Notes under the pieces: generated by a model
The model's database searches: none
What the model saw: the letters and a program-made list of their open reading frames with translations, nothing else
What the model was told of the DNA's origin: nothing
Shown here: positions 9,617-62,637 of the stretch, piece by piece
Layout of the letters: each line of letters starts with the position of its first letter
Position numbering within the stretch: the stretch's first letter is position 1
Source: Oscillospiraceae bacterium
Lineage (GTDB): Bacteria > Bacillota > Clostridia > Oscillospirales > Ruminococcaceae
Reading direction: 5' to 3'
Assembly: GCA_018110825.1 (NCBI GenBank)
Contig: JAGBCL010000014.1
Coordinates: 90,467 to 154,466, forward strand
Length of the DNA: 64,000 nucleotides
Made by a program: the position numbers and the translations under genes

Positions 9617-10027
9617 TTAGTGACAGCCACCGCAAGTTGAACAGCTTCCACCGCAACTGTGAGGCTCTTCGGTAGGGCATGTTTCAGGATCTTCACCATT
9701 TGCGGAATATGTTATAACCATATTAATCTGGTTAAGCATGACATCCATTGCATTTTTAGCTTCATTATATGCAGCCATATTTGGATTTGACATAATTGTT
9801 GAATAAAGCTCCTTGATTTCATTGTCAAGAGCAGTAAGCTTTTCTGCGCTTCTGTCTTCCTTACCCATTTCTGCATTCAATTCAATTCTCTTCATCTGGA
9901 ATTCATTAATAAGCTGCTGGAGAGCTGAATCAGCATCGTTGGCTTCTTTTGCCTTACAGTAGGCAGCATATCTTTCATCTGCCTGAATCATTTTTCCTAA
10001 TTCTCTCGCTTTGTCAATTACATTCAT
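9617..10027 (-). CDS. YlbF/YmcA-family protein with C-terminal cysteine cluster
   Basis: A 136-residue alpha-helical Com_YlbF-type protein (MNVIDKARELGKMIQADERY; FQMKRIELNAEMGKEDRSAE). In Bacillus, YlbF and YmcA form a Fe-S-binding complex with YaaT that directs RNase Y processing and affects Spo0A phosphorylation. The last 20 residues here are unusually Cys-rich (HSCGGSCSTCGGCH), five cysteines and a terminal His able to hold metal. It sits between miaB and mutS in one direction with a 19-nt gap to miaB. The family call is sound; the RNase Y link is inferred from relatives. Confidence 0.8.
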   Translation of the reverse strand: MNVIDKARELGKMIQADERYAAYCKAKEANDADSALQQLINEFQMKRIELNAEMGKEDRSAEKLTALDNEIKELYSTIMSNPNMAAYNEAKNAMDVMLNQINMVITYSANGEDPETCPTEEPHSCGGSCSTCGGCH

Positions 10028-10045
10028 TTTTTATACTCCTTTATA

Positions 10046-11413
10046 TTAATTTATTATTTCACCTTGTAAAGCCCAATTAAAAACTTTAGTGATTTTAACT
10101 TTTTTACGCTGTCCGATTATAATTTCATCAGATTTGGCTTCTACAATTATAAACTCATCACTTTTACCGGTATACCAGTTATCATTTTTACCTTCAGAAT
10201 CAAAAAGTACATCAAGTACTCTTCCTTCAAAACGTTTGAAAAATTCTGATGATACTTCACGCTGCACTTCAAGAAGCTCTCTCATCCACTTACCTTTATC
10301 TTCAGCTGATGTTTTGTCATCAATAAGAGCTGCTTTGGTTCCAGTGCGTTTAGAATAAATGAATGAAAAAACATTATCATATTTAACCTTGCGCATTACA
10401 TCGAGCGTACATTTGAAATCCTCATATGTTTCATTTGGGAAACCAATAATTATATCTGTACTGAATGAGAAATCCGGGATACGGCTTCTTGCATAATCAA
10501 TGATTTCCATATATTTTTCAACAGTATACCGCCTATTCATTTCGTCAAGAATACGATTGCTACCTGACTGCAGCGGCAAGTGAAGATGTTTGCAAACTTT
10601 ATCACACTCTACTATAGCATCAATAAACTCCTTGGTAGCATCCTTAGGATGAGGTGACATAAATCTGATTTTAAAATCACCTTCTATATTATTAATCATC
10701 CTGAGAAGTTCCGAAAAAGTTATAGGGTTTTCAAGTGTTTTTCCATAAGAATTTACATTTTGCCCTAAAAGCATTATCTCCTTATATCCTGCATCAACCA
10801 GTTCCTTAACCTCTTTAAGAATTGCTCCGGGTTTTCGGCTTCGTTCTCTGCCTCTGACATATGGAACAATGCAGTACGAACAGAAATTATTACATCCGTA
10901 CATAATCGGAACACCAGTTTTTATTTTATCGTTTCTGACAGCCGGAATTCCTTCAGGAATTTCGTTATTATATTCCGTAATATCTACCATCAGCTTTCTC
11001 TCTGTCAAAACATTGTATACCAGTTTCGGAAGCTCATTCAAAGCGAAAGTTCCGAAAACAAGATCAACTTGCTTATAAGTTTTCTTTATTTTCTCAACAA
11101 CATGCTCCTGTTGAGCCATGCATCCGCAAATTCCTATTATCAATTCAGGATTATTTTCTTTAAGATGCTTTAGATTTCCTATAAGCCCATATATCTTTAA
11201 TTCAGCATTTTCACGGACCGCACAAGTATTATATATTATCATATCAGCTGAAGTGGCATCGTTAGTTATACCATATCCAAGTTCTGTAAGCAAGCCAAGA
11301 ATTTTTTCTCCATCACTCACATTCTGCTGACATCCAAAGCTATGAAGATAGCAAAGCGGAGGTGATATTCTTGCAGATAATATTTTCTGAACCTTATTCT
11401 TATAATCAGTCAC
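10046..11413 (-). CDS. miaB: tRNA-2-methylthio-N6-dimethylallyladenosine synthase MiaB
   Basis: Radical-SAM methylthiotransferase acting on i6A37 tRNA, the MiaA product. The N-terminal cluster domain carries FGCQQN, NTCAVRE and GICGCM cysteines; the radical-SAM motif is GCNNFCSYCIVPYVRG (CxxxCxxC); the C-terminus is a TRAM domain. The frame is open to 11485, but a GTG at 11411-11413 behind GGGGAG is the likely start, because a sigma-A promoter (11457-11485) lies inside the extra segment. This gives 455 residues. Confidence 0.94.
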   Translation of the reverse strand: MTDYKNKVQKILSARISPPLCYLHSFGCQQNVSDGEKILGLLTELGYGITNDATSADMIIYNTCAVRENAELKIYGLIGNLKHLKENNPELIIGICGCMAQQEHVVEKIKKTYKQVDLVFGTFALNELPKLVYNVLTERKLMVDITEYNNEIPEGIPAVRNDKIKTGVPIMYGCNNFCSYCIVPYVRGRERSRKPGAILKEVKELVDAGYKEIMLLGQNVNSYGKTLENPITFSELLRMINNIEGDFKIRFMSPHPKDATKEFIDAIVECDKVCKHLHLPLQSGSNRILDEMNRRYTVEKYMEIIDYARSRIPDFSFSTDIIIGFPNETYEDFKCTLDVMRKVKYDNVFSFIYSKRTGTKAALIDDKTSAEDKGKWMRELLEVQREVSSEFFKRFEGRVLDVLFDSEGKNDNWYTGKSDEFIIVEAKSDEIIIGQRKKVKITKVFNWALQGEIIN

Positions 11414-11456
11414 TTGACTGCTCCCCTTTTTAACGCAATAACAAAATACATTTATA

Positions 11457-11485
11457 ATTATATCACTTTTCAAGTCAAAATGCAA
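11457..11485 (-). promoter_or_regulatory. Sigma-A promoter for miaB
   Basis: On the minus strand: TTGCAT (11480-11485), a 17-nt spacer, and TATAAT (11457-11462). It drives miaB and probably the ylbF-like, mutS and mutL genes below it. Confidence 0.6.
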
Positions 11486-11490
11486 CTATT

Positions 11491-12075
11491 TCAATATACT
11501 TTTTCGCAACCATCAAACAATATTTTTACATCAGTAGGTATAAATGAACCATAGCCCTGATATTTTACATATATTTCATCTTCATACTTAAAAATAAGTA
11601 TTTCATTATTCGGATTATCATTATCTACATACTTTTCTGCTACAACGTATTCTGATAAAAATGGATTTTCTTTATATGGATAAATCTCTGCATCAACATC
11701 GTCTATAGCATTACCATATTCAAAAAGTATTCCTTCATCAGCAAAAACTTCTGTATCTTCAACCCCTGAAAATAATACCGAAACTTTATATCCTGCATTA
11801 TTTTTTTCAAGACGTGAACTTTCAAATACTAATCCGTATTCTTTCGAAACAGCAGCATATTCAAAATACAAATCAAGAAGTTCTTCTGATGTATTTTCAG
11901 GATATCTGAACATATGATATGGACGATTCAGTTTATCAATCAGTCCATTACCTCCAAAATAAATAATACAAAATATTGCAATTGAAATAATAGTATATAT
12001 TACTGTCTGTTTTTGGGAGTTTTTGGGAACACGTTCTTGTTCTCTTTCATCAACAATAGTTACATCTTCTTCCAT
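11491..12075 (-). CDS. Unknown single-pass membrane protein
   Basis: 194 residues. A charged cytoplasmic N-terminus (EEDVTIVDEREQERVP) is followed by one membrane helix (about 25-45, VIYTIISIAIFCIIYFGGNG) and an extracytoplasmic domain rich in Tyr and acidic residues, ending FDGCEKVY. No family is recognised. It is transcribed divergently from the DnaD-like gene, with 133 AT-rich bases between the two starts. It ends 5 nt before the miaB promoter region, so it is probably its own unit. Confidence 0.7.
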   Translation of the reverse strand: MEEDVTIVDEREQERVPKNSQKQTVIYTIISIAIFCIIYFGGNGLIDKLNRPYHMFRYPENTSEELLDLYFEYAAVSKEYGLVFESSRLEKNNAGYKVSVLFSGVEDTEVFADEGILFEYGNAIDDVDAEIYPYKENPFLSEYVVAEKYVDNDNPNNEILIFKYEDEIYVKYQGYGSFIPTDVKILFDGCEKVY

Positions 12076-45146: not shown

Positions 45147-45431
45147 AAAAAAAGCCCTCATCTCCTTGTAAGAGATGAAAGCTTGTAACTTCCACGGTAC
45201 CACTCTTGTTCAGACTTTCGTCTGCACCTCACCGCATCTCAATCATTCGATATCCAATGCGTATCTCTGTAACGGGAGAACCCGTTCCAACCTACTTATC
45301 TGTGCACAAGATGTTCAGCGGACTGCTCAAGGACGAGTTATAACCGAAATTCTATACTGCCTTTCACCACACGGCAGCTCTCTGAAAAAGTCAATCGGGT
45401 TTTATTCCTATCAGCGCATTTGATTTATTAC
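45147..45431 (-). ncRNA. T-box leader RNA, leucine-specific
   Basis: Read on the minus strand from a promoter at 45438-45466. Stem I has AGAGAGCTGCCG and GGTGAAAGGCAG elements, then a specifier loop with CTC (Leu) complementary to 45335-45337. The T-box sequence AGAGTGGTACCGTGG (45192-45206) follows, whose TGGT bulge fits an A discriminator as in tRNA-Leu. A terminator (45147-45183, ending in seven T) closes it. Uncharged tRNA-Leu would stabilise the antiterminator and allow leuA transcription. Confidence 0.94.
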
Positions 45432-50134: not shown

Positions 50135-50151
50135 CTGAAAGGATGAATAAA

Positions 50152-51912
50152 ATGACAAACCCTATCAAATCCGCATCTAATGAACTTCGTGAGCTGCTTA
50201 TGGCTGCTCTCGGCAGACTTGTTTCTGAAGGAAAAATTGAAGCTGTTCCCCTTCCTGCATTCAACATTGAAATTCCGCAGGATAAATCTCATGGTGACTT
50301 TGCTTCAAACATTGCACTTGCTTGTGCTAAGCCCCTTAAATCTGCACCAAGAAAGATTGCTGAAATGCTTTGCGAAGCAATTATTCTTGAAGGCAGCTCA
50401 TTTGAACGTGTTGAAATTGCCGGACCTGGATTCATTAACTTTTTCTTATCCAGAAGCTGGTTCTCAAATGTTATCAATTCTGTATTTACTGAAAAAGAAA
50501 ATTACGGACGTACCGATACCGGTGCAGGAAAGAAAATTCTTGTTGAATTCGTTTCTGCAAACCCTACAGGTCCTATGCATATTGGTAATGCTCGCGGCGG
50601 TGCTATCGGTGACTGCCTTGCAGCGGTTCTTGACTGGGCAGGCTACAATGTTGAACGTGAATTCTATGTAAACGACGCTGGCAATCAGATTGAAAAATTC
50701 GGTAATTCCCTCAATCTCCGTTATTTACAGCTCTGTTCAGAAAATGGACAGGCATTCATTGCTAAATATGCTGACAACGAAGAACTTTGTCAGGCAATTT
50801 ACAATGACGCTGATACATTCCCTATGCCTGAGGATGTTTATCTCGGTGCGGACATTATTGTTCATGCTAAAAATTTCTATGATATTAACGGTAATGCTTT
50901 TGCTGAAAAATCCGAAGAAGAACGCAAGGAAGCTCTTGTTGCGTTTGCACTTCCTAAGAATATTCAGAAGCTTGAAGATGACCTCCGCAAGTATAGAATT
51001 GAGTACAACACATGGTTCCGTGAAAGCTCACTTCATAACAGCGATGCTATCAAAAACGTAATTGACCTTCTCAAGAAGAGTGGTTACACTTACGAACAAG
51101 AAGGTGCACTCTGGTTCAAATCTTCTGAACTTGGGGATGAAAAGGACAGAGTTCTCATCCGTGCAAACGGTATTCCTACTTACTTTGTTCCTGATATTGC
51201 TTACCACTACAATAAGCTTGTTACACGTGGTTTTGATACAGCTATTGACATTCTCGGTGCTGACCACCACGGTTATATTCCAAGAATGAAAGCTGCTATG
51301 CAGGCTCTCGGAGTTGACCCTAGCCGTCTCGACATGATTATTATGCAGATGGTTCGTCTTGTAAAGAATGGAGAAACATACAAGCTTTCCAAGCGTTCAG
51401 GTAAGGCTGTTACACTCGAAACTCTGCTTGATGAAATTCCTATTGACGCAGCACGTTTCTTCTTCAATCTCCGCGAAGCAAACTCTCACTTTGAATTTGA
51501 CCTTGACCTTGCTATTGAACAGTCCTCAAAGAATCCTGTTTACTATGTTCAGTATGCTCATGCAAGAATCTGCTCCATTATCCGCAATCTTGAAGCTGAA
51601 GGTTACTCCGTTAAGGTACTTTCTGCTGAGCAGCTGAATGTACTTGATGCACCTGAAGAAATCGAACTTATCCGTTTTATTGCTTCCCTACCTAACACTG
51701 TTGATGCGGCTGCAAAGGATTATGACCCAGCCAAGATTACACGTTATACTCAGGACCTTGCTACCTTGTTCCACAAATTCTATGATAAGTGCAGAATCAA
51801 GGGTGCAGAAGAAAATGTACTTTATGCACGTCTTGCTCTTTGCGAATCTGTTAAGATTACTCTCAAGAACACACTTGATATGCTTAAAATTACCTGTCCT
51901 GAAAAGATGTAA
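50152..51912 (+). CDS. argS: Arginyl-tRNA synthetase
   Basis: A 586-residue class I synthetase. The Arg-tRNA-S N-domain is followed by the HIGH region SANPTGPMHIGNARGGAIGD; the KMSK site reads KLSKRSG, and the anticodon-binding DALR domain contains VQYAHARICSIIRNLEAEG. ATG 50152 is preferred to 50143 because the GAAAGG site would touch the earlier codon. No T-box is seen upstream. Confidence 0.96.
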   Translation: MTNPIKSASNELRELLMAALGRLVSEGKIEAVPLPAFNIEIPQDKSHGDFASNIALACAKPLKSAPRKIAEMLCEAIILEGSSFERVEIAGPGFINFFLSRSWFSNVINSVFTEKENYGRTDTGAGKKILVEFVSANPTGPMHIGNARGGAIGDCLAAVLDWAGYNVEREFYVNDAGNQIEKFGNSLNLRYLQLCSENGQAFIAKYADNEELCQAIYNDADTFPMPEDVYLGADIIVHAKNFYDINGNAFAEKSEEERKEALVAFALPKNIQKLEDDLRKYRIEYNTWFRESSLHNSDAIKNVIDLLKKSGYTYEQEGALWFKSSELGDEKDRVLIRANGIPTYFVPDIAYHYNKLVTRGFDTAIDILGADHHGYIPRMKAAMQALGVDPSRLDMIIMQMVRLVKNGETYKLSKRSGKAVTLETLLDEIPIDAARFFFNLREANSHFEFDLDLAIEQSSKNPVYYVQYAHARICSIIRNLEAEGYSVKVLSAEQLNVLDAPEEIELIRFIASLPNTVDAAAKDYDPAKITRYTQDLATLFHKFYDKCRIKGAEENVLYARLALCESVKITLKNTLDMLKITCPEKM

Positions 51913-53326: not shown

Positions 53327-54043
53327 ATGAGTAATGAGAAATTCAAAATTTCAAGCAAAAGTCTGCTTATCACAACAGGAGTTTGTATTGCAGTTGCGGC
53401 AATTGCCGGATTTTACACCTATAACAAGGCATCAGACCAACTGAATGCCGAAATTATCGGCAACAACAAAACTACATTGTCCGCAGAAGCAACCACTGAA
53501 ACTCATGTTAATGCTGAACAGACTAACATTGCAAAGACAGAAAATACGACAGATACTGAAACTGAAGTAATTGAATCAGCAATTGCTCCGGAAGTTGAAG
53601 TGGTTGAGGATGCTGCCGTTACTCCTCAGGTTATGGTAAGACCGCTTAACGGCGAAATTATCAACAGTTTTTCAAACAATGAGCTTGTAAAATCCAAAAC
53701 ACTCAATGTATGGAAAACACATGATGGCGTTGACATTGCAGGTGCTCTTGATGAGAAAGTAAAAAGCATGACAAGCGGTAAAGTTACAAAGGTTTATGAA
53801 GATCCAATGATGGGTGCTTGCGTGATCATTGACCACGGTAATGGTCTTGAGGGATACTATTGCAATCTTAGCAAAGACATTCCAATTGCAGAGGGTCAAA
53901 ATGTTTCTGCAGGAACAATTATCGGAATGGTTGGTGACACTGCAGAAAGCGAAATCAGTGAGCCTTTTCACCTGCATTTCGCAGTTAAGAAAAATGGTGA
54001 ATGGATCGATCCCATTGCACTTATTTCTGGAGAAGGAAGCTAA
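53327..54043 (+). CDS. SpoIIQ-like M23 peptidase
   Basis: 238 residues. An N-terminal membrane helix (about 12-32, LLITTGVCIAVAAIAGFYTY), a Thr/Glu-rich linker (about 45-105), then an M23/LytM domain with both zinc motifs, HDGVD and HLHF. Clostridial SpoIIQ keeps such residues; SpoIIQ, made in the forespore, pairs with SpoIIIAH to hold the engulfing membrane. The membrane-plus-single-M23 layout and the sigma-F-like promoter argue for SpoIIQ, but spoIIID is not adjacent, so another envelope M23 protein remains possible. Confidence 0.68.
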   Translation: MSNEKFKISSKSLLITTGVCIAVAAIAGFYTYNKASDQLNAEIIGNNKTTLSAEATTETHVNAEQTNIAKTENTTDTETEVIESAIAPEVEVVEDAAVTPQVMVRPLNGEIINSFSNNELVKSKTLNVWKTHDGVDIAGALDEKVKSMTSGKVTKVYEDPMMGACVIIDHGNGLEGYYCNLSKDIPIAEGQNVSAGTIIGMVGDTAESEISEPFHLHFAVKKNGEWIDPIALISGEGS

Positions 54044-54051
54044 AATGCAAG

Positions 54052-54082
54052 AAAAGAGGTACCTTGTGGGTACCTCTTTTCT
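54052..54082 (+). terminator. Terminator of the SpoIIQ-like gene
   Basis: Perfect stem AAAAGAGGTACC / GGTACCTCTTTT with a 5-nt loop, followed by CT. Confidence 0.9.
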
Positions 54083-54087
54083 ATAAA

Positions 54088-54113
54088 AAACGCACGACCG
54101 AAGCCGTGCGTTT
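54088..54113 (-). terminator. Hairpin, probable terminator for minus-strand transcription
   Basis: AAACGCACG / CGTGCGTTT; on the minus strand the second arm runs into TTTTTTA. Confidence 0.75.
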
Positions 54114-54140
54114 AATTTATTATTTTAGACTTTTACGTAA

Positions 54141-54224
54141 TTAAGCCTTCATAGCTTCCTCAACCGCAACTGTTCGATTGTAAAACTGGAATCCATAGGC
54201 AAAGACAGAACAATGGACTTACCA
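54141..54224 (-). pseudogene. Possible 3' coding remnant next to the recombinase
   Basis: Between the recombinase stop and a minus-strand terminator, two frames stay open and end in stop codons. One ends YNRTVAVEEAMKA, the other LPMDSSFTIEQLRLRKL. Either could be the tail of a gene cut by insertion of the element, or a lost C-terminus of the recombinase itself. Neither family is recognised. Confidence 0.25.
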
Positions 54225-55844
54225 TTATATTGTGCTGTCTTTGATAAAAATGATAGCTGCGTTCCCTGTCCATACAACTCTTTTAATAATTTTCTTTATG
54301 TATTCACGTTTGTTTTCTATTGACAGATTTTCAAAGTTATCCTTAAGATAAACTATAGCGTCCTCTAAGGAGTTGAGATTTCTATGAAGCTGTGCCTGAA
54401 TAATGTCTTTATCATTCAATTCACAAATCTGCGTCTCAATCAGTTGATTCTCATTATTAAGTTCCTCAATTTTATTATTGATAGCAGCCATAGTCAACTC
54501 ACTTGCGCCGTTAGCCAATGCTGTAACAAGATTATTTAAAGCCTTGGTGTTGTGATTCTTTTTGTCATTCAGCTTTTTAATCTGTACTGAAATATCATCG
54601 TCAATATTGTTAAGCTGTTTACGCAATGCATTAAGCTGTGTATTTACAACGCTGTCCTTAACATCGAATTCGAAAATTCTCCGCATAACAATTTTGTCAA
54701 GCTCATCACCGTTTACATTATGGTTTTCACAAGCAGCCTTCTTGGTTTTCTCCTTGTTTTCGCACATATAGTACATTACACCTGAACCATACAGTTTAGG
54801 ACGCATATAAGAACCGCACTTACAGAACAATACTCCCGAAAGCAAAGACCTTGGATTAAAGCTGCGTTTTGTAGCACAAACTCCGCCATAACGGTTTTTG
54901 CTGTTCTGTTCAAGAAGATTCTGAATTCTTACCCACTCTTTTCCGCTCAATAATCCTTGATGAGTAGATACGGTAATCATCCACTTTTCAGGAGGTACAC
55001 TCTTCTGATTAGTATGACGATTGTACGGAAGAATGCCTGAAACACCGTCACAATCAGTTTTGTCAAAGCAAATGTTACATCCGAGTTCGGTAAAGTATTC
55101 CAGACTATCCTCGTCTGCTATACAATAAATCGGGTTATTGAGAATACGTTTGGCATTGGCGTTTGACCATTCTTTTCCGTTACGGGTAAGATTCTTGGTT
55201 TTGTTAAGATACTGTTCTACTGCATGAACGCTCTGCAATTCACTGTACTTTGTAAAAATGAGCTTTACAAGTTCAATTTCGTCTTCGTTAATTTCAAGTG
55301 TAAAATAGCTTCTTGACTTACCATTGACGTCAGATACTGTATGCCTGACTGACTTGTAACCGAGTGGTGTTGTTCCTCCTGTCCAACGTCCCAGCTTAGC
55401 AAGCTGATACATATTGTCCTTGATACGTTCAGCTATGGTTTCACGTTCAAGCTGAGCGAATACAGCAGCAATATTCATCATTGCTCTGCCCATAGGAGTT
55501 GATGTGTCAAACTGTTCCTTGATGCTGATAAAAGCAGTTCCAAGAGAGTTGAGCTTTTCAATCAATCCTGAAAAGTCACCTACATTTCTGCTTACTCTGT
55601 CAAGCCGATACACGATAAGGCAGTCAAACGGCTCACTTTCTTCAACACTCATAAGCCTTTTAAACTGCGGTCTGTCAAGACTTTTGCCGGATACACCTTC
55701 GTCCTCATACACTGAAATTTCAAACTGGTCATAATCAGCGAAATGAAGCTTTAAATATTCCTTGCACATTTCAATCTGATTTTCAATGCTGTCACCCTTG
55801 CCTGTAAATTTGGACTTTCTAGAATAGATAGCTATTCTTTTCAC
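54225..55844 (-). CDS. Large serine recombinase (site-specific integrase)
   Basis: 539 residues. The resolvase catalytic domain (about 1-150) has the nucleophile in IAIYSRKSKFTGKGDSIENQ, VYRLDRVSRN and GRAMMNIAAVFAQLERETIA. The recombinase domain (about 165-270) is followed by a zinc ribbon (LFCKCGSYMRP with MCENKEK) and a coiled-coil C-terminus (about 390-500). Such TndX/TnpX-type enzymes excise and integrate clostridial elements without high-energy cofactors. The promoter is at 55899-55928. The C-terminus at FIKDSTI is short, and a continuing open frame just beyond might be lost tail. Confidence 0.92.
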   Translation of the reverse strand: MKRIAIYSRKSKFTGKGDSIENQIEMCKEYLKLHFADYDQFEISVYEDEGVSGKSLDRPQFKRLMSVEESEPFDCLIVYRLDRVSRNVGDFSGLIEKLNSLGTAFISIKEQFDTSTPMGRAMMNIAAVFAQLERETIAERIKDNMYQLAKLGRWTGGTTPLGYKSVRHTVSDVNGKSRSYFTLEINEDEIELVKLIFTKYSELQSVHAVEQYLNKTKNLTRNGKEWSNANAKRILNNPIYCIADEDSLEYFTELGCNICFDKTDCDGVSGILPYNRHTNQKSVPPEKWMITVSTHQGLLSGKEWVRIQNLLEQNSKNRYGGVCATKRSFNPRSLLSGVLFCKCGSYMRPKLYGSGVMYYMCENKEKTKKAACENHNVNGDELDKIVMRRIFEFDVKDSVVNTQLNALRKQLNNIDDDISVQIKKLNDKKNHNTKALNNLVTALANGASELTMAAINNKIEELNNENQLIETQICELNDKDIIQAQLHRNLNSLEDAIVYLKDNFENLSIENKREYIKKIIKRVVWTGNAAIIFIKDSTI

Positions 55845-55898
55845 TTAACTGTTCCCTCCCAGTCTCTATTTTTTTACGTCATTTTTTGTCATATAAGC

Positions 55899-55928
55899 AG
55901 TATACCATATATTTGTCTTATCTTGCAA
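55899..55928 (-). promoter_or_regulatory. Promoter of the recombinase
   Basis: Minus strand TTGCAA (55923-55928), 18 nt, TATACT (55899-55904). Several TTGCA/TGCAA words surround it (for example CTTGCATATAGCAAG at about 55967-55981), possible regulator sites. Confidence 0.5.
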
Positions 55929-56050
55929 CAATTTTCGAAAAAATGTTTGCACAAGTTATTTATTTCTTGCATATAGCAAGTATAAAAATATACAACAACA
56001 GTGTATTATGATAATTTGCGACAAGTTTTGTGAAAATTTGATGAAAATTA

Positions 56051-56147
56051 TTGACATACACAAAAAAATCAGTACAATGTAAATATAGTTTTTTAACTAG
56101 TGCATATATCTTTCTTTTAAATTTAAGGGAGATTATGCACTTTTTTT
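56051..56147 (+). ncRNA. Promoter-hairpin-terminator unit: short RNA or attenuated leader
   Basis: TTGACA (56051-56056), 16 nt, TACAAT (56073-56078), then within about 15 nt a long imperfect hairpin (AGTGCATA 56099-56106 with TATGCACT 56134-56141, and inner pairing) followed by seven T. The product would be a 55-60 nt RNA. It could be an independent small RNA or an attenuated leader for the 54-residue gene at 56280. Confidence 0.5.
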
Positions 56148-56279
56148 ATTTTATAAATTAAGCCAGATGTTTTTCATCTCTGAGTAGGCAAATTTGCATT
56201 TACCAATTCAGTAAACGACATAATATTCCTTTAAAAGAACGTAGCAATGACAAATTTGTAGACAATGAGGTGTATCACT

Positions 56280-56444
56280 ATGAAAAAATCAAAACGTATT
56301 AAAACTGTCGTTTACTTCCCCAATAATAGGGATGCTTTTGAAAAATTATATGTAGACGCAACCTTTGAAGCAATTAAACAGTTGGCAAGAACTACATCTC
56401 CTCCAAATATTCCAGACAAAAAGAATGATAAGGATAAAATTTAA
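56280..56444 (+). CDS. Small 54-residue protein of the element
   Basis: Begins MKKSKRIKTVVYFPNNRDAF and ends PNIPDKKNDKDKI. It has a GAGGTG ribosome-binding site at good spacing and is followed directly by a hairpin, so it looks expressed despite its size. Basic N-terminus, one amphipathic helix (VDATFEAIKQLAR), polar tail. No family is recognised; small DNA-binding or partner proteins of recombinases are possible. Confidence 0.5.
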   Translation: MKKSKRIKTVVYFPNNRDAFEKLYVDATFEAIKQLARTTSPPNIPDKKNDKDKI

Positions 56445-56479
56445 TCCCTCAAAGCTATGAAATACAGCTTTAAGGGATT
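56443..56479 (+). terminator. Hairpin after the 54-residue gene
   Basis: AATCCCT-C-AAAGCT / AGCTTT-A-AGGGATT, beginning in the stop codon; little U-tract follows. Confidence 0.6.
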
Positions 56480-56566
56480 GAAAGAAGTAGTTGTTAAGCC
56501 TTTACATTTGGTTAGTCAATAGAGCCATTTTATGCTGGCAACAAATATTGATTTCATAAACTTTTC

Positions 56567-56839
56567 TTATTCATCAATTTCCTTCATCATTTCCAACATA
56601 AGCTGAGCCCCGACCCTGACACCCATCTGAAACTGCAGAAATTCGTAATGATTGGCGGCGGCGTGGTATGTCACAAAGTATTTATCCAAAAACTCCTTTG
56701 CCTCAGGATATTTCTTGAACATCTCAACCTGAAGCTTAAGAATTTCCTCCAATTTTTCATCATATTCTTCTGAACGCGGGTTCAGTTCCATAAAGGAAAG
56801 AATATTTCCGTAATACATGTCTTTAAGTATACTGTTCAT
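56567..56839 (-). CDS. DUF6809-type helical protein
   Basis: 90 residues: LKDMYYGNILSFMELNPRSE, then a helical LEEILKLQVEMFKKYPEAKE and YEFLQFQMGVRVGAQLMLEM. It looks like the small helical DUF6809 proteins common in clostridial genomes and mobile elements, function unknown. The ribosome-binding site is GGAGG. It is the last gene of a three-gene minus-strand run after two SpoVG paralogues. Confidence 0.7.
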   Translation of the reverse strand: MNSILKDMYYGNILSFMELNPRSEEYDEKLEEILKLQVEMFKKYPEAKEFLDKYFVTYHAAANHYEFLQFQMGVRVGAQLMLEMMKEIDE

Positions 56840-56864
56840 ATATTTTTACCTCCAAATAGATATT

Positions 56865-56893
56865 AAGCGTTGGAACATAAAGTCCCAACGCTT
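56865..56893. terminator. Hairpin between SpoVG paralogue 2 and the DUF6809 gene
   Basis: AAGCGTTGG / CCAACGCTT. A T-tract follows on the plus strand only, so for the minus-strand genes it is more likely a processing or attenuating hairpin. Confidence 0.5.
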
Positions 56894-56899
56894 TTTCGT

Positions 56900-57169
56900 T
56901 TATTCTGTCATCTGTGCAACATAAGCCGCATAAGCATCAAGCACATGCACTTCGATAATCTCTCTTGCTTCAGCAAAAATCGGATGCACCATATCGGCAA
57001 ACCCACCGTCAACAGTTTTTCTGCTGGGCATTCCGACAAAGAGCCTGTCAGTCCCCTGAACAACCTTGATGTCGTGAACCTCAATAAAGTTGTCAATGAC
57101 GATTGAAGCAACAGCCTTAAGCTTGCCCTCTGTGAAAATGTTATGGATATTTACGTTTGTAATAGTCAT
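56900..57169 (-). CDS. SpoVG-family protein, copy 2
   Basis: 89 residues, the SpoVG fold throughout: FTEGKLKAVASIVIDNFIEV, HDIKVVQGTDRLFVGMPSRK, FADMVHPIFAEAREIIEVHV. SpoVG proteins are small dimeric DNA- and RNA-binding regulators. The ribosome-binding site is AAGGAG. It lies 98 nt downstream of a second, diverged SpoVG gene within the mobile element, so it is probably an accessory regulator rather than the housekeeping SpoVG. Confidence 0.9.
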   Translation of the reverse strand: MTITNVNIHNIFTEGKLKAVASIVIDNFIEVHDIKVVQGTDRLFVGMPSRKTVDGGFADMVHPIFAEAREIIEVHVLDAYAAYVAQMTE

Positions 57170-57267
57170 AAATTTTGTAACTCCTTTGTGATTGTAAGTT
57201 TAGTTTGTACGTTTGTAAAAGTTGCCTGTGCAAAAGCCGAACAGACCTTTGCACAAGCTTTTGAACA

Positions 57268-57567
57268 TCAGAAAGACATCTTGTCATCTTCCGAATCAAG
57301 CACGCTTTCAAGTTCCACATAATTCTTGTAAGCTTCAAGAATCGTGTCCTCGAAATACTTTCTTGCCTCAGGATAAATCGGATGAACTACATCACGGTAA
57401 ATCCCGTTTTCGTCCTTGCGTGACGGCATGGCGATGAACAATCTCTCGCTGCCCTGAACAACCTTGATGTCGTGGATGGCAAGGCAGTCGTCGATTGTGA
57501 CGGACACAATACCTCTGAGTGCACCGTCTGTAAATGTCTTTCTGATTTTAATTTCTGTGATTTTCAT
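57268..57567 (-). CDS. SpoVG-family protein, copy 1
   Basis: 99 residues: FTDGALRGIVSVTIDDCLAI, HDIKVVQGSERLFIAMPSRK, YRDVVHPIYPEARKYFEDTI, and an extra acidic tail (ESVLDSEDDKMSF). About half its residues match copy 2 by eye, so the pair is an old duplication. The ribosome-binding site is AAAGGAGG. The long gene-free stretch upstream (57568-58053) would be its 5' region if transcription starts far off. Confidence 0.9.
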   Translation of the reverse strand: MKITEIKIRKTFTDGALRGIVSVTIDDCLAIHDIKVVQGSERLFIAMPSRKDENGIYRDVVHPIYPEARKYFEDTILEAYKNYVELESVLDSEDDKMSF

Positions 57568-58053
57568 GGTGAAAATCCTCCTTTAAAATATTAAAAATTA
57601 TTCAGATACATAATTGCCGCCGGCAGGCATTACATATCTTTAAGAACAATCCGCCGTCTCACCAGAGACGGTTTTATAGAACATGATAATATCAATAATA
57701 TAGAACGTGAATCCTAACTTTGAATTACCAAATTCTTTAGAAGAAACTCGCCAGCACACCAGTGCTGGTTTTGACATTCATCCGACCTACAGTCTGTAAA
57801 CGCAAAACAGCAGACCGTTAATGGTAACAGTCCGCTCTTCACGTCTACCTGTGTTCAATTGTGGGAACAATGCCTGAGATGGACAGTGCAGACTCCTGTA
57901 ATGTCATACACTATCCTAAACACTATCCCGACGGCAGCTTCTCTGCCGTAAAAGCAATATACAATTAGAATATGTATTACTTTAAATCCAATCCGGCAGT
58001 GCTTTTGCACTGCCCTTATATTTGCAGTACACAAGGTGATTACCGTTCCGTTA
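57568..58053. other. Gene-free, hairpin-rich region (candidate structured RNA)
   Basis: No convincing gene in about 490 nt. Four strong hairpins: CCGTCTC-ACCA-GAGACGG (57654-57671) and CCAGCAC-ACCA-GTGCTGG (57751-57768), both with loop ACCA and followed by TTTT; ACGGCAG-CTTCT-CTGCCGT (57931-57949); GGCAGTGC-TTTT-GCACTGCC (57995-58014). Open frames here are short and lack ribosome-binding sites. Either a large structured RNA or a set of cis sites of the element. Confidence 0.45.
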
Positions 58054-58082
58054 TTGACTTTTAAGCAGGGTTTCGTTATAAT
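58054..58082 (+). promoter_or_regulatory. Sigma-A promoter of the GrpB-family gene
   Basis: TTGACT (58054-58059), 17 nt, TATAAT (58077-58082). Confidence 0.75.
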
Positions 58083-58114
58083 AATTATAAATATGAACTT
58101 GAGGGAGATTACAG

Positions 58115-58630
58115 ATGAGTGCAAAAAGGGTTATAGTTACACCTTATGATAAAGCGTGGAAAACTGCATTTGAAGAAATAAAAGCAGAAATTGAAAGTGC
58201 AATCGGCGACTTAATCATCGGCATTGAACATGTCGGAAGCACATCTGTGGAAGGACTTTCTGCCAAACCTTGCATTGATATTGATGTTATAATAAAAGAT
58301 TATTCAGTATTTAATGCTATTGTAAAAGAATTAGAGAAAATCGGCTACATTCATAAAGGCGACCTCGGAATAAAGGACAGAGAAGCGTTTAAATGTGCAG
58401 ATAAACCTCATTTGCAAACGCACCATTTATATGTGTGTCCTCAATATTCCGAAGAATTACGTCGCCACATTACATTCAGAGATTTTTTGAGAAGCAACGC
58501 TGAAGCTGTCAAAAAATACAGCTTGGTTAAGGAAAAAGCTGCACAGCTATTTCCAAATGATATTGATAAATACATAGAATACAAATCGCCTTGCATTGAT
58601 GAGTTGTATAAACTGTGTGGTTTGAATTAA
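58115..58630 (+). CDS. GrpB/UPF0157-family nucleotidyltransferase-like protein
   Basis: A 171-residue GrpB-family protein: PYDKAWKTAFEEIKAEIESA, IEHVGSTSVEGLSAKPCIDI (nucleotidyltransferase-like GSTS..D.D), HLYVCPQYSEELRRHITFRD. The fold is a minimal nucleotidyltransferase, sometimes fused to CoaE elsewhere; its substrate is unknown. GAGGGAGA ribosome-binding site and its own promoter. Probably cargo of the element. Confidence 0.88.
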   Translation: MSAKRVIVTPYDKAWKTAFEEIKAEIESAIGDLIIGIEHVGSTSVEGLSAKPCIDIDVIIKDYSVFNAIVKELEKIGYIHKGDLGIKDREAFKCADKPHLQTHHLYVCPQYSEELRRHITFRDFLRSNAEAVKKYSLVKEKAAQLFPNDIDKYIEYKSPCIDELYKLCGLN

Positions 58631-58712
58631 GTTACTGAATACATACAAAAAATGATGGACCACAAAAGCCCATCATCCAAACATATACCCATAATAAAAA
58701 AATAAGAGGTGT

Positions 58713-58882
58713 ACCAAAATAGTAACAAAAAAGGCGCAATTTTGGTGTGCATAACGTAATTTAAAGCCGGTGTCCAAAATTGTTACTTTTTAGGTGCGAA
58801 AAATGCACCAAAATAGTAACTTTTTTGGTACAGCAAGCAAAATTTTTGAATCGTGTGCGATTTTGTAACAAAAACGGTGCAG
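58713..58882 (+). repeat. Four iteron-like ~26-bp repeats
   Basis: Copies at 58713-58738, 58773-58798, 58807-58832 and 58858-58882 share the pattern (C)CAAAAT-A/T-GT-A/T-AC, five or six A/T, then GG-C/T-GC. Spacing is irregular (60, 34 and 49 nt). An inverted half copy (TTTTGGTGTGC) lies near 58741-58750. They resemble binding sites for a replication or mobilisation protein. A hairpin ATGATGG / CCATCAT (58652-58676) separates them from the GrpB gene. Confidence 0.55.
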
Positions 58883-58947
58883 AACCGGTGCATTTATTGC
58901 GCACTGAAATTTATGATAAAAAATTCCTGTTTCAAAAAAATTTAGGC

Positions 58948-59281
58948 TTGACATTTAATCCAAAAGGTGTAATAATAAAATCAAATAGAATATAAAATTT
59001 CATAAGATTGCATAGGTCTTGAATTCATACAAGAGCAACGCCCTGCTAAGGCAAAGCTTGAATTCAAGATAGAATAGAGCACGAAAACGAAAAAGCTTAA
59101 ACTCATATAAGGGTGACGCCCTGCTAAGGCGAAGCCTGAGTTTAAGAAAAAATGGAGCACGAAAATGAAAAGGCTTAAATTCCTACAAGAGTGACACCCT
59201 GCTAAGGTGAAGCTTGAATTTAAGATATGATTGAGCATGAAATTATACTTCACTTGAAGTGTATTTTTATGCTCTTTTTTT
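58948..59281 (+). ncRNA. Three tandem 78-nt hairpin repeats with promoter and terminator
   Basis: TTGACA (58948-58953) and TAATAA (58970-58975) would start an RNA near 58982. Three repeats of exactly 78 nt follow; their hairpins are 59018-59068, 59096-59146 and 59174-59224. Outer stems: CTTGAATTC/GAATTCAAG, CTTAAACTC/GAGTTTAAG, CTTAAATTC/GAATTTAAG. Inner stems GCC/GGC, GCC/GGC, ACC/GGT close an identical CTGCTAA loop. Linkers share GAGCACGAAAA. A terminator GAGCAT..ATGCTC plus seven T ends at 59281. No open frame explains it. Confidence 0.75.
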
Positions 59282-59340
59282 GTACCCACATGCGGAAATA
59301 TTTGTAAATTGCATAGTAGGTGCAAAATGGGTAGGAGGTC

Positions 59341-59408
59341 AAGGAGGAAGGGAGTCCCTACCTCCTTGCGCCACTATTGATGAAAAGGTCTGCCTTTTTG
59401 TCAATAGT
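59341..59408. other. oriT-like palindrome pair before the relaxase gene
   Basis: First palindrome 59341-59367: AAGGAGG-A-AGGGA-G-TCCCT-A-CCTCCTT. Second 59373-59408: ACTATTGA-TG-AAAAGG-TCTG-CCTTTT-TG-TCAATAGT. Inverted repeats directly upstream of a relaxase gene are the usual setting of the transfer origin; the nick site itself was not identified. Confidence 0.5.
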
Positions 59409-59476
59409 TTCTTGGCTTATGAAACAATCGGCATACCGATTGACGAAAGCATTGACTTTGAGAAAGGACGGATATT

Positions 59477-61438
59477 ATGGCAGCTGGAATTACATCAAAC
59501 CACAACAAGAATTTAGGTAATGGACAGACAGGCAACCTTATTCACAATGACCGTAAAATCAACCCTAAAAATGTTGATCCAAGGCTTATTCAGAATAATA
59601 TTATCTTCAAGAACAGTACGCTTGCTGCAGCTTACGAAGAAGCCTTCGGTGATGCTATTGATGAGTATAATCATAAGCAGAAGCGTAGTGACAGAAGAAA
59701 GTATGACAGAAAAGGCTACTTCAAGCATCTTTTCGGAGTTGAGCCTGAAAATGAAAGTGCACAGGTAATTCTTACTTCTACTGCAAGAGGTAGGCATGAG
59801 ATAAAATCCTTTAATGAGGATTTGTTTCAGGTTGGAGATTGTCAGGAATTCGGACACTTTATGCGTGACGAGTATGGCAATTTCATTGATAAGGACGGCA
59901 ACCCTGTTAAATGGGATACAAAAGACCGTACATATTATGACGTAAACGGAAACGAAGTAACTGACAGCAGTAATCTTATGCCTAACCCTGAAGCTGAACG
60001 TGCAAAGGCAGTTCTCACATGTTTTTATGAGGGCGGCAGATTTAAATTTGCTGCTGATAAAGACGGCAGACCTTGTCTTGAACGCCTTGATGACAACAGT
60101 CCTGAGTCAGATGATTTATATATTCTCCCGTTTGAAGAACGCAATCCAAGCTTTAAAGTTGTTTACGCTACTATTCACAATGATGAATGGCACGGCACTC
60201 CGCATATTCATATAGATTATGTTCCTGTTGGAAGCGGCTACAATAAAGGTCCAGAAAAGCAGGTAGGCTTTGAAAGAGCATTGGCTGATATGGGATTTAC
60301 AAATAAGAATGTTGCGTACAAGCAGTGGCGTAACAACGAACGGTTAATATTAAAGACAATATGCAACTGTTTTGGTTATGAAACCAAGACCAGAGAAGAA
60401 GAAAAAGCAAATAACCGTGGCAAGACCTATACAACCAAGGAATATTCCGATATAATCCATGATGCTAATGCAGATGCACAGGAAATACGCAAAGATGCTG
60501 AACAGCAGGCACAGGATACCATAGAAAATGCAAATCAGGAAGCTCAGAGGACACTTGAAAACGCTGACCAACAGGCTAATAACACCATTGAAGACGCAAA
60601 TTGTCAAGCACAGGAAATTATTGAAGGTGCAGAGGTTGTTTTAAACACAACAAAGGAAGAAGCCTGCGAAATCAAGGAACAGGCTGAAAATGATGCAGCA
60701 GCTGTTATTCATAAGGCTTTTGTTGAAAAAGAACAGATTGAAAATGAGGCTGAAACTATACGAAATCAGGCTCGTGAAGAAGCTGAAAGTATAATAACAG
60801 CGGCAAAACAGGAAGCTGCAGATATTGTAGATGGAGCTCTTAGGGATAAACATAATTTAAAAGCTGAAAAGAAAGCACTTACTGAAGAAAACGAGAATTT
60901 GAAAAATGACATTCAAAGCAACCGCAACCAGATAATGATACTGGTAGGTGTCATTGCAAATATGCCGAAGAAAAAGAATGTAATTCAGAATTTTATTTCA
61001 AAACATAGTGCTGAGAAATATGAGATGGATAAAGAAGCCTATGATGGATTTATGTCAGCAGTAGATACAATGAAGCGTTTGTCAGGCAACACGCTTACTT
61101 CTGATGAGGATAAGGCTGCAAGTGAAGAAAGGTTAAGACAGATTGAACAGCTTAAAGCCGACATGGAACGTAACATCAGAGAACAGGCTGAACAGCTGGG
61201 AAGGCAGATGGTTCAGAGGAAGGTTGAGGAGCTTGAGCTTGAAAAGAATAAGTACACGTCGCTTTATAAGAATTTAAAATTAAATGCATTTAACTTTGCA
61301 AATAGAATGTGTACAAAGGTTTCAAGCCAATTTGCTCAAATGAGTAAGGAAGAAAAGTTAAAAATGCTTTCTGATGCGTATTGGCAGGTTAAGAATGAAC
61401 AGCGGACCAGAGAGGAGTCTGGGATGGAGATGGGGTGA
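59477..61438 (+). CDS. MobV-type relaxase (plasmid mobilisation/recombination protein)
   Basis: 653 residues. The N-terminal relaxase half (about 1-320) has the conserved metal-site motif NDEWHGTPHIHIDYVPV near 235-251, and HNDRKINPKNVDPRLIQNNI at the start as in Pre/Mob proteins. The C-terminal half is a long coiled coil (about 325-600). Residues 343-386 are four near-identical 11-residue units. The relaxase nicks oriT, stays on the 5' end and pilots the strand through a helper's channel. The ribosome-binding site is AGAAAGGA. Confidence 0.87.
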   Translation: MAAGITSNHNKNLGNGQTGNLIHNDRKINPKNVDPRLIQNNIIFKNSTLAAAYEEAFGDAIDEYNHKQKRSDRRKYDRKGYFKHLFGVEPENESAQVILTSTARGRHEIKSFNEDLFQVGDCQEFGHFMRDEYGNFIDKDGNPVKWDTKDRTYYDVNGNEVTDSSNLMPNPEAERAKAVLTCFYEGGRFKFAADKDGRPCLERLDDNSPESDDLYILPFEERNPSFKVVYATIHNDEWHGTPHIHIDYVPVGSGYNKGPEKQVGFERALADMGFTNKNVAYKQWRNNERLILKTICNCFGYETKTREEEKANNRGKTYTTKEYSDIIHDANADAQEIRKDAEQQAQDTIENANQEAQRTLENADQQANNTIEDANCQAQEIIEGAEVVLNTTKEEACEIKEQAENDAAAVIHKAFVEKEQIENEAETIRNQAREEAESIITAAKQEAADIVDGALRDKHNLKAEKKALTEENENLKNDIQSNRNQIMILVGVIANMPKKKNVIQNFISKHSAEKYEMDKEAYDGFMSAVDTMKRLSGNTLTSDEDKAASEERLRQIEQLKADMERNIREQAEQLGRQMVQRKVEELELEKNKYTSLYKNLKLNAFNFANRMCTKVSSQFAQMSKEEKLKMLSDAYWQVKNEQRTREESGMEMG

Positions 61439-61454
61439 TGTTTGGTAGAAATCG

Positions 61455-61483
61455 TTGAAATATGGGGAAATTTGTGGTATAAT
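61455..61483 (+). promoter_or_regulatory. Sigma-A promoter of the YdcF gene
   Basis: TTGAAA (61455-61460), 17 nt, TATAAT (61478-61483). Confidence 0.75.
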
Positions 61484-61514
61484 TAGTGTAGATGATTTGT
61501 AGGAGGATATCCAT

Positions 61515-62120
61515 ATGACCAATCGTATTATTACTGATATTTCAGATTATATATTTGTGTCCGATGAACCGCAGAAGGTAGATGCAATTTTTCTTCCCGG
61601 AGGCTCTCATCCTGAGCAACCTGAATATGCGGCAGAACTTTATCACAAAGGTTTTGCAGAGTGGCTTATCCCGTCGGGCGGCATAAGTGTTAAGGCAGAT
61701 AAGTGGCATGGTGTCCGTTCCAAAGCAGAAATATACAATGGTGATTACCATTCCGACTGTGAATTCTTCACAGATGCTTTGATAAAAAATGGTGTTCCGA
61801 TGTCTGCAATTATTCAAGAAAACAAATCGGGACATACCCGTGATAACGCTTTTCTTTCACGCAAGGCTGTTGATGAAAAAGGAATAGAAATTAAAACAGC
61901 CATCATTGTATGCAAAGCCTTTCACGCACGCCGCTGTTTAATGCTTTATCAGATGGCATTCCCTGATGTTGATATAAAGGTTTGCCCTGTGCATTGCTAT
62001 AACATTACCAAAGAAAATTGGTATCAGACCGAATACGGAACAGACAGAGTTCTCGGTGAGCTTGCACGCTGTGGAAATCAGTTTGTGGGGGATATAAAGA
62101 ATTATCTTACAACTATGTAG
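61515..62120 (+). CDS. YdcF/SanA-like DUF218 protein
   Basis: 201 residues. A DUF218 domain with VDAIFLPGGSHPEQPEYAAE, WLIPSGGISVKADKWHGVRS, ENKSGHTRDNAFLSRKAVDE and VCKAFHARRCLMLYQ. The Rossmann-like domain binds nucleotide or SAM-like ligands in some relatives; the role is not known. No membrane segment, unlike SanA. The ribosome-binding site is GGAGGAT. First gene of a four-gene plus-strand run. Confidence 0.87.
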   Translation: MTNRIITDISDYIFVSDEPQKVDAIFLPGGSHPEQPEYAAELYHKGFAEWLIPSGGISVKADKWHGVRSKAEIYNGDYHSDCEFFTDALIKNGVPMSAIIQENKSGHTRDNAFLSRKAVDEKGIEIKTAIIVCKAFHARRCLMLYQMAFPDVDIKVCPVHCYNITKENWYQTEYGTDRVLGELARCGNQFVGDIKNYLTTM

Positions 62121-62145
62121 ATTCAGAATGATTGGAGATAGTGAA

Positions 62146-62637
62146 ATGAACATATTGCTAACTGCTTTTATAAACACTTCAAGTGAGTTGCTTATTAAAT
62201 CGTTTGGCGATAATTATGACAAACTGATATTAGAGAACAATAAAAAACAGTGTTTTTCTCAGTTTAAAGATAAAATTGAAGCTAAGAGTTACGATTATGT
62301 GTTTAGCTTTGGTCAGAAGCCTGTTATTTCAGATAAAGTTTACATTGAACAATACGCTAAGAATGATAAAGGAACATATGAAACAACTATTGATATAACG
62401 AAGTTTGCAAATGCGTTTATGAGCAGTGCACTTACAGTAAAGCTCTCTAAAAATGCAGGAACTTCATATTGCAATTACTTATATGCACAGGGTCTTGAAT
62501 ATCTAATCTTAAGTAATCTAACTACTAAAATGATATTCATTCACGTCCCCTTTTCTAAAAATATTACTGACTTTAACAACTTCTCTCAGAAAATAAAAGA
62601 CGCTATAGGAAACTATGCAAGGGGGTATTATGACTAA
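62146..62637 (+). CDS. Pyroglutamyl-peptidase I-like protein (C15)
   Basis: 163 residues. The pieces fit peptidase C15: LLTAFINTSSELLIKSFGDN at the start (FGG...N in the family), YIEQYAKN (Glu position), NAGTSYCNYLYAQGLEYL with the catalytic Cys, and IFIHVPF with the His. It is shorter and divergent compared with about 200 residues for the enzyme, so specificity is open. ATG 62146 follows GGAGA. Overlaps the HAD gene by 8 nt. Confidence 0.7.
   Translation: MNILLTAFINTSSELLIKSFGDNYDKLILENNKKQCFSQFKDKIEAKSYDYVFSFGQKPVISDKVYIEQYAKNDKGTYETTIDITKFANAFMSSALTVKLSKNAGTSYCNYLYAQGLEYLILSNLTTKMIFIHVPFSKNITDFNNFSQKIKDAIGNYARGYYD

Follow-up and report, generated by a model that had tools for sequence, protein, structure and literature searches.

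Tandem hairpins with a tRNA anticodon-arm-like core on a mobile element of an Oscillospiraceae bacterium: a candidate decoy RNA

What might a mobile element do with a row of hairpins that share one loop, stand between a promoter-like site and a terminator, and lie ahead of a relaxase gene? The question arises in a 64,000-nucleotide stretch of an Oscillospiraceae genome, analysed here as a whole and called the window. An earlier sequence-only reading had described three tandem hairpins with paired stem changes and had offered several roles for them: antisense or decoy control of the relaxase, a scaffold for the SpoVG proteins of the same element, or a transfer-related structure. The array stands up to analysis and has somewhat more to it than was first noted; its interesting part is a likeness to the arm of a tRNA. 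As a whole the interpretation is partly supported: RNA structure and transcription signals hold up, but linkage to the relaxase is not supported.

The array and its single relative

Tandem Repeats Finder (TRF) reports one tandem array in the entire window (59018–59242; period 78, 2.9 copies, 80% matches, 0% indels), in agreement with the three indel-free units of 78 nt first described. Each unit carries a 51-nt hairpin with the loop CTGCTAA, made of helices of 9, 3 and 3 bp, a 6-nt bulge and a small internal loop (Table 1). The outer 9-bp stem, the inner 3-bp stem and the fixed loop had been recognized correctly; the middle 3-bp helix had been overlooked. All three paired stem changes named at the time are present, and a fourth lies in the middle helix, which passes from GAG/CUU to GGG/CCU among units.

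Table 1. Features of the array and its surroundings, in window coordinates
Feature	Position	Strand	Evidence or remark
Large serine recombinase	54225..55844	-	79% identical to the recombinase beside the G189 hairpin
59-aa ORF, start perhaps 56280	56265..56444	+	51–55% identical to the ORF beside the G189 hairpin
Promoter-like site TTGACA-17-AATAAT, TG before second hexamer	58948..58976	+	11/12 consensus letters; consensus match alone
Inferred transcript of ~300 nt, three hairpins and terminator	58982..59281	+	Fold; 5′ end inferred
Hairpin 1 (u1): 9-bp, 3-bp and 3-bp helices, loop CTGCTAA	59018..59068	+	Fold and pairing analysis
Linker 1 with GAGCACGAAAA, resembling the terminator 5′ arm	59069..59095	+	Sequence
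Hairpin 2 (u2)	59096..59146	+	Fold and pairing analysis
Linker 2 with GAGCACGAAAA	59147..59173	+	Sequence
Hairpin 3 (u3)	59174..59224	+	Fold and pairing analysis
Intrinsic terminator, stem 59233–59274 then T run	59233..59281	+	Fold
MobV-type oriT-like sequence, perfect 8-bp arms ACTATTGA/TCAATAGT	59368..59418	+	Read by eye; separate from the array
MobV/Pre-type relaxase (plasmid recombination protein)	59477..61438	+	tblastn

The stems vary as paired structures. In the three copies 45 of 45 stem cells are paired and every variable pair (4/4) is changed on both sides; when the pairing partners are slid by 1–3 columns, at most 51% of cells stay paired. Shuffles equal the 4/4 compensatory result in 10 of 500 trials, which is about the floor for three sequences. 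By simple combinatorics, which is not a phylogenetic test, the chance that the eight variable stem letters form four whole pairs is 2.3 × 10−4, and ~3 × 10−6 if the correct partner letters are required. The folding check that had been suggested gives −80.7 kcal/mol for the RNA at 58982–59281 (z = −5.1), with none of 200 shuffles equally stable; the minus strand of the array also folds, more weakly (z = −4.0).

The signals on either side agree with the promoter and strong terminator first proposed. Upstream, the promoter-like site is a consensus match only. The 901 bases scanned contain four promoter-like sites and shuffled versions 2.9 on average; the number is therefore no evidence, and only the quality of this one site counts. 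Downstream, the fold places a long stem and a T run, although a simple terminator scan did not list this terminator. The repeated linker sequence is likewise present and can be specified further: GAGCAYGAAA, the 5′ arm of the terminator at 59233, recurs in both linkers (59077 and 59155). The array thus looks like an expanded hairpin-plus-terminator gene.

A covariance model built from the three units was matched, in a family sample of 396 genomes, by the window and by one of the 395 others (G189; 62.9 bits, E 3 × 10−9). It matched the window only among 21 genomes of the genus; a second model (R2) matched the window only in 394 genomes of the order, and G189 only in the two genomes of the G189 genus. 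Where a search covered more than 40 genomes, scoring was confined to the 12 best candidates of each, under strict filters. The G189 locus has a promoter-like site with 12/12 consensus letters, a single hairpin and a terminator fold, and its loop is 9 nt long (CTTCGCTAA) versus 7 nt in the window units. With G189 added, 60 of 60 cells pair, and four pairs are changed on both sides and one on one side. The compensatory pairs bear out the suggestion of selection on RNA structure, and the core recurs in a second element. Tandem duplication of the hairpin together with the terminator 5′ arm, in a G189-like gene with one hairpin and a terminator, is the probable origin of the three copies.

G189 is the single relative found for this covarying RNA, which is without a match in Rfam. 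At gathering score, the sole Rfam match in the window is a T-box leader on the minus strand (45168–45423), away from the array; the five matches within 58900–59480 at E up to 5 are all far under their gathering scores. DNA comparison matched three of 100 genomes, the window's included, and the other two matches (G046 and G006) were set aside as 28–29 nt in or beside ordinary chromosomal genes. The phage and plasmid collections gave two records each, chance matches of 33–36 nt (E 0.07–0.08). A tandem-loop pattern led to low-complexity repeats, tRNA-Ser(GCU) genes and other DNA in genome contigs (10 stretches) and viral contigs (2), and four of these loci did not match model R2. The relaxed pattern matched four viral stretches, all rejected (tRNA clusters at L145 and L146, and L065 and L066, already met), and, in 377 family genomes, the window and an unrelated repeat in G270 only; its reversed control matched in ~10 genomes. 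The reverse-complement core pattern gave no match, and none of the five viral loci with a 17-base core pattern matched the model.

A tRNA-like core and what it may bind

The core of each unit resembles the 3′ strand of the D stem and the anticodon arm of a tRNA. Its loop is, letter for letter, the anticodon loop of the host tRNA-Ser(GCU), with which the array has 11 letters in common (CCCTGCTAAGG), and this identity points to tRNA mimicry. The sequence-only reading knew no described family with this loop; that holds for Rfam families, but the loop itself is that of a tRNA. In all three window hairpins a 7-nt loop with C32, U33, A37 and A38 sits on 3–4 paired bases, which is not the case in G189 with its 9-nt loop. 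In viral contigs the core pattern occurs in two places, both inside tRNA-Arg(UCU) genes according to ARAGORN. Of three genome loci taken by eye for tRNA genes, ARAGORN identifies two as tRNA-Ser(GCU), and the third (L068) contains N runs.

The resemblance was noticed first and tested afterwards. A matrix was built from 35 distinct host tRNAs (positions 21–43), and every hairpin of three or more pairs that closes a 7-nt loop was scored against it. The units score 17.4, 16.7 and 14.5 bits, where host tRNAs range from 1.6 to 25.9, and the G189 hairpin minus two loop bases scores 17.3. They rank 1, 2 and 3 of 22,428 hairpins from 25 sources (the window and 24 loci; next best 12.3), and 1, 2 and 8 of 89,052 from 120 sources with ARAGORN tRNAs masked, a background that includes loci fetched for the loop motif or for tRNA genes. 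None of 2000 structure-preserving shuffles of any of the three units reached its matrix score, though small pseudocounts push this null very low (mean ~−19), which makes the test generous. By a gapped score, structure-preserving shuffles were as good in 37, 18, 25 and 8 of 2000 cases (u1, u2, u3 and G189) and dinucleotide shuffles in 14, 0, 9 and 2 of 500. An ungapped score against host tRNAs is outstanding for u3 only (2/1000 dinucleotide shuffles as good) and ordinary for u1 (93/1000), u2 (107/1000) and G189 (205/1000). The sequence likeness to tRNA is thus beyond chance in the matrix and shuffle tests, but ordinary in the ungapped test for three of the four hairpins.

All four hairpins are collinear with host tRNA-Arg(UCU) from position 5 to 43–56. 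The best-matching tRNA is Arg(UCU) for u1, Ser(GCU) for u2, Gly(GCC) for u3 and Arg(CCU) for G189, with Arg(UCU) second best for u2, u3 and G189; since the four hairpins are related, these alignments are not four independent proofs. The predicted fold puts the 'D-stem' strand to another use, pairing it with the hairpin's 3′ side, and the overall shape is accordingly not that of a tRNA; in u2 the D-stem letters depart from tRNA (GAG to GGG). A whole tRNA gene was rejected with ARAGORN, which finds none in the window or in the G189 locus L077, and Rfam gives no tRNA match to 58900–59480 even at E up to 5.

We tentatively propose, at somewhat less than an even chance, that this element-borne small RNA is a decoy or sponge for a protein that binds anticodon arms. 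The array would be transcribed as a stand-alone structured small RNA from an integrative mobilizable element. Each 51-nt hairpin would display, at the end of a long stem, a copy of one tRNA segment: the 3′ D-stem strand and the anticodon arm that follows it. Several such tips, if their likeness to tRNA extends to function, would sequester a protein whose usual ligand is the anticodon arm of a tRNA. Candidate partners are anticodon nucleases of defence or toxin systems, tRNA-modifying enzymes and synthetases. The proposal is drawn from the two elements found.

Multi-copy hairpins with an invariant loop, as seen in the array, are the usual design of protein sponges such as the CsrB-type RNAs, and the RNA could in principle titrate some other RNA-binding protein, its tRNA likeness being accidental or a functionless relic. 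An accidental likeness would agree with the 9-nt loop in G189 and with the weak results of ungapped scoring. The matrix ranks among 89,052 hairpins and the absence of any equal among 2000 shuffles per unit make pure accident unlikely, and we regard a sponge for another protein as a somewhat unlikely explanation overall. Its best-known form can be rejected: CsrA sponges carry a GGA loop motif, and the hairpins have no GGA loop.

For a decoy of an anticodon-arm-binding protein, the identity of the partner may be narrowed by leads of uneven value. A review table counts A20, C35 and U36 among the arginine identity letters of bacteria (PMC9976931); the last two are retained in the loop, which we take only as a lead. 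An argS gene for ArgRS lies at 50143–51912, ~7 kb upstream of the array; its proximity to an Arg-tRNA-like RNA is probably chance, because the gene is part of the flank and ArgRS is without a match on the G189 contig. Ten proteins from the element and from the DNA to its right gave no PADLOC match. The host encodes an AAA_13 protein (L172, G000:C115:2855–4609) with a CxxC pair, behind two smaller ORFs, which presumably resembles RloC-like or ABC three-component systems. The PrrC and RloC anticodon nucleases belong to Pfam AAA_13, but the family also occurs in seven of 14 control genomes (three over the cut-off), and the host protein was therefore given no weight as evidence of a partner.

A more specific form of the proposal is doubtful: that the RNA represents a new family of mobile-element small RNAs, made of anticodon-arm mimics in tandem, which descend from tRNA-Arg(UCU) or have converged on it, carry GCU in place of its anticodon and shield the element by occupying a host anticodon nuclease. 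If true, it would be counter-defence by a tRNA-mimic RNA, parallel to the RNA anti-CRISPRs, and would mean that mobile elements titrate tRNA-reading proteins with short tandem copies of a tRNA arm. It would also add an RNA class, simple and open to test, that counters defence or controls translation enzymes, and would show what to search for: a tRNA-arm core on a hairpin that is not a tRNA and has a promoter and terminator to itself.

The surrounding element and further explanations

The array is surrounded by genes for a serine recombinase, a 59-aa ORF, DUF6809, two SpoVG proteins, GrpB and the relaxase. The G189 hairpin has on one side a serine recombinase (79% identity to the window's) and on the other a homologue of the small ORF. 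When the 27-kb G189 contig was searched with 12 window proteins (tblastn), these were the only two matched, and no homologue of the relaxase, SpoVG, DUF6809 or GrpB was found; the RNA therefore travels with the recombinase group and not with the relaxase, as far as two elements can tell. The small ORF occurs in two of 297 family genomes (the window genome and G189), and a further search for it matched 25 stretches and confirmed none. Beside three less similar recombinases (44–48% identity), no comparable RNA gene was seen by eye in the adjoining ≤1.5 kb, and their genomes have no model match. The G189 element may extend past the recognised part of its contig and the window stops at a contig end, so the limits of the element are not settled.

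Several further features were seen around these elements. At the recombinase-side end, the window (54148–54170) and G189 (L077 5075) carry 21 letters identical to the 3′ end of the gene for a GGGtGRT protein (PF14057; G009 locus L163 ~1501–1523). The same letters occur in the window genome's own contig C15 (L170 2700), and they are perhaps the attachment site of this recombinase group. At 56053–56150, in the place that corresponds to that of the hairpin in G189, a promoter-like site and a short terminator-like hairpin are seen by eye without the tRNA-like hairpin; an RNA gene has perhaps been lost from this place or has moved away. Immediately upstream of the RNA gene in the window (58710–58832) lie iteron-like direct and inverted repeats of the CCAAAATAGTAACTTTTTTGGT type. 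On the G189 contig, L171 ~9724–11707 holds repetitive ORFs like a translated CRISPR array, adjoining genes that resemble type III CRISPR parts, both judged by eye.

The relaxase is a distant relative of the MobV/Pre proteins: it matches 209 plasmid records, all below 60% identity, has no Pfam match above the cut-off, and is matched in 30 of 150 genomes, its own included. Ten stretches of viral contigs matched it and none was confirmed. An oriT-like inverted repeat of similar layout was read by eye upstream of several relaxase relatives.

With promoter-like site, hairpins and terminator placed upstream of the relaxase and in the same orientation, the array might be a cis-acting leader or antisense RNA on the relaxase and transfer, for example an attenuator ahead of the oriT-like sequence and relaxase, as the sequence-only reading had suggested. 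Recurrent linkage to MobV relaxases, which that reading had looked to, is not supported: the covariance-model search found one relative, whose contig has no homologue of the window relaxase. In 20 regions with relaxase relatives, no TRF array has a period above 22 nt; 17 of these regions have ~1.2 kb of upstream DNA, and three are shortened by contig ends to 81, 140 and 564 nt, including 60 nt of the gene. A model search of 16 of the 20 gave 22.5 bits at best (E 0.09). As for antisense action, the loop complement TTAGCAG is confined to the array within 54001–62200, so that no loop-complementary target was found within the element, and such a target is rejected. We consider control of the relaxase in cis unlikely. 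The same lack of support for linkage weakens the other two roles first offered, the SpoVG scaffold (G189 has no SpoVG homologue on its contig) and the transfer-related structure, for which the oriT-like sequence is moreover separate.

A free-standing promoter–terminator gene whose loop is invariant in the three window copies would also suit a small RNA that targets chromosomal mRNAs by base pairing, with the loop or the A-rich linkers as the pairing region. G189 has a different loop, and no conserved single-stranded seed longer than the 7-nt loop was seen; pairing of this kind appears improbable.

Inverted repeats close to an oriT-like sequence and to iteron-like repeats raise the thought of a DNA-level element (a cruciform, or an origin of replication or transfer). 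We judge this very improbable, given that a promoter-like site and a terminator flank the hairpin or hairpins in both elements, that the plus strand folds better than the minus strand, that the oriT-like sequence lies elsewhere and that the neighbours differ in G189. The array was in particular rejected as the MobV oriT: read by eye, it is without the short inverted repeat with a GCGCC...-type boundary that the separate sequence at 59368–59418 has.

Least credible of all is a repeat protein of 26-residue period encoded on the minus strand. An open frame does cross the units on that strand (58981–59325), which partly corresponds to a finding that the sequence-only reading had named as speaking against an RNA, and another crosses the G189 hairpin (L064 1401–1625). 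The window frame has no Pfam match, compensatory changes favour RNA, and the codons changed between units are mostly non-synonymous (12/15, 12/14 and 14/15), which makes coding unlikely and led us to reject the protein.

Comparison with known systems

In the open-licence literature, among the matches listed and in the portions of text they give, no description appears of anticodon-arm mimics that form an array by themselves on a mobile element. Four kinds of system invite comparison with the proposed decoy.

ToxI-type antitoxin RNAs have their own promoter. Type III toxin–antitoxin RNAs such as ToxI are described, in the extract cited, as tandem RNA repeats ending in a terminator (PMC8860590), and the array shares with them tandem repeats, a promoter (by consensus only in the array) and a terminator. 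By that extract the repeats differ: hairpins with a 78-nt period in the array versus short pseudoknots. No ToxN-, CptN- or TenpN-like toxin was found among the window neighbours (Pfam, PADLOC) or among those G189 neighbours that were scanned (some, with Pfam), and with no toxin gene among the window neighbours a type III antitoxin was rejected.

Phage tRNAs escape anticodon nucleases, according to an excerpt of PMC11455837, and like the array they place anticodon-arm sequence on a mobile element. As presented there they are whole tRNAs, whereas the array has only the arm, on a hairpin.

The Racr RNA anti-CRISPRs mimic CRISPR repeats (PMC10651486, as excerpted). The account describes small mobile-element RNAs that mimic a host RNA and often lie just downstream of a predicted promoter, as the array RNA would. 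What is mimicked differs, CRISPR repeats in the Racrs of that account and, as proposed, a tRNA arm in the array.

The operator of E. coli thrS mimics the anticodon arm of tRNA-Thr (PMC9976931, in the section cited), and anticodon mimicry is discussed for thrS with ThrRS and for HisRS in a passage of PMC6542539. The operator and, as proposed, the array are RNA hairpins that mimic an anticodon arm, accompanied in the operator, by these accounts, by a second such arm; the operator is there bound by a tRNA-reading protein, and binding by the array is proposed. The array differs in being stand-alone, in three tandem copies and on a mobile element. An operator of this kind is part of a synthetase leader and represses that gene, whereas downstream of the array come a terminator, an oriT-like sequence and a relaxase gene. 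By analogy, the thrS operator would be nearest to the array in working principle, and the Racr RNAs nearest in logic.
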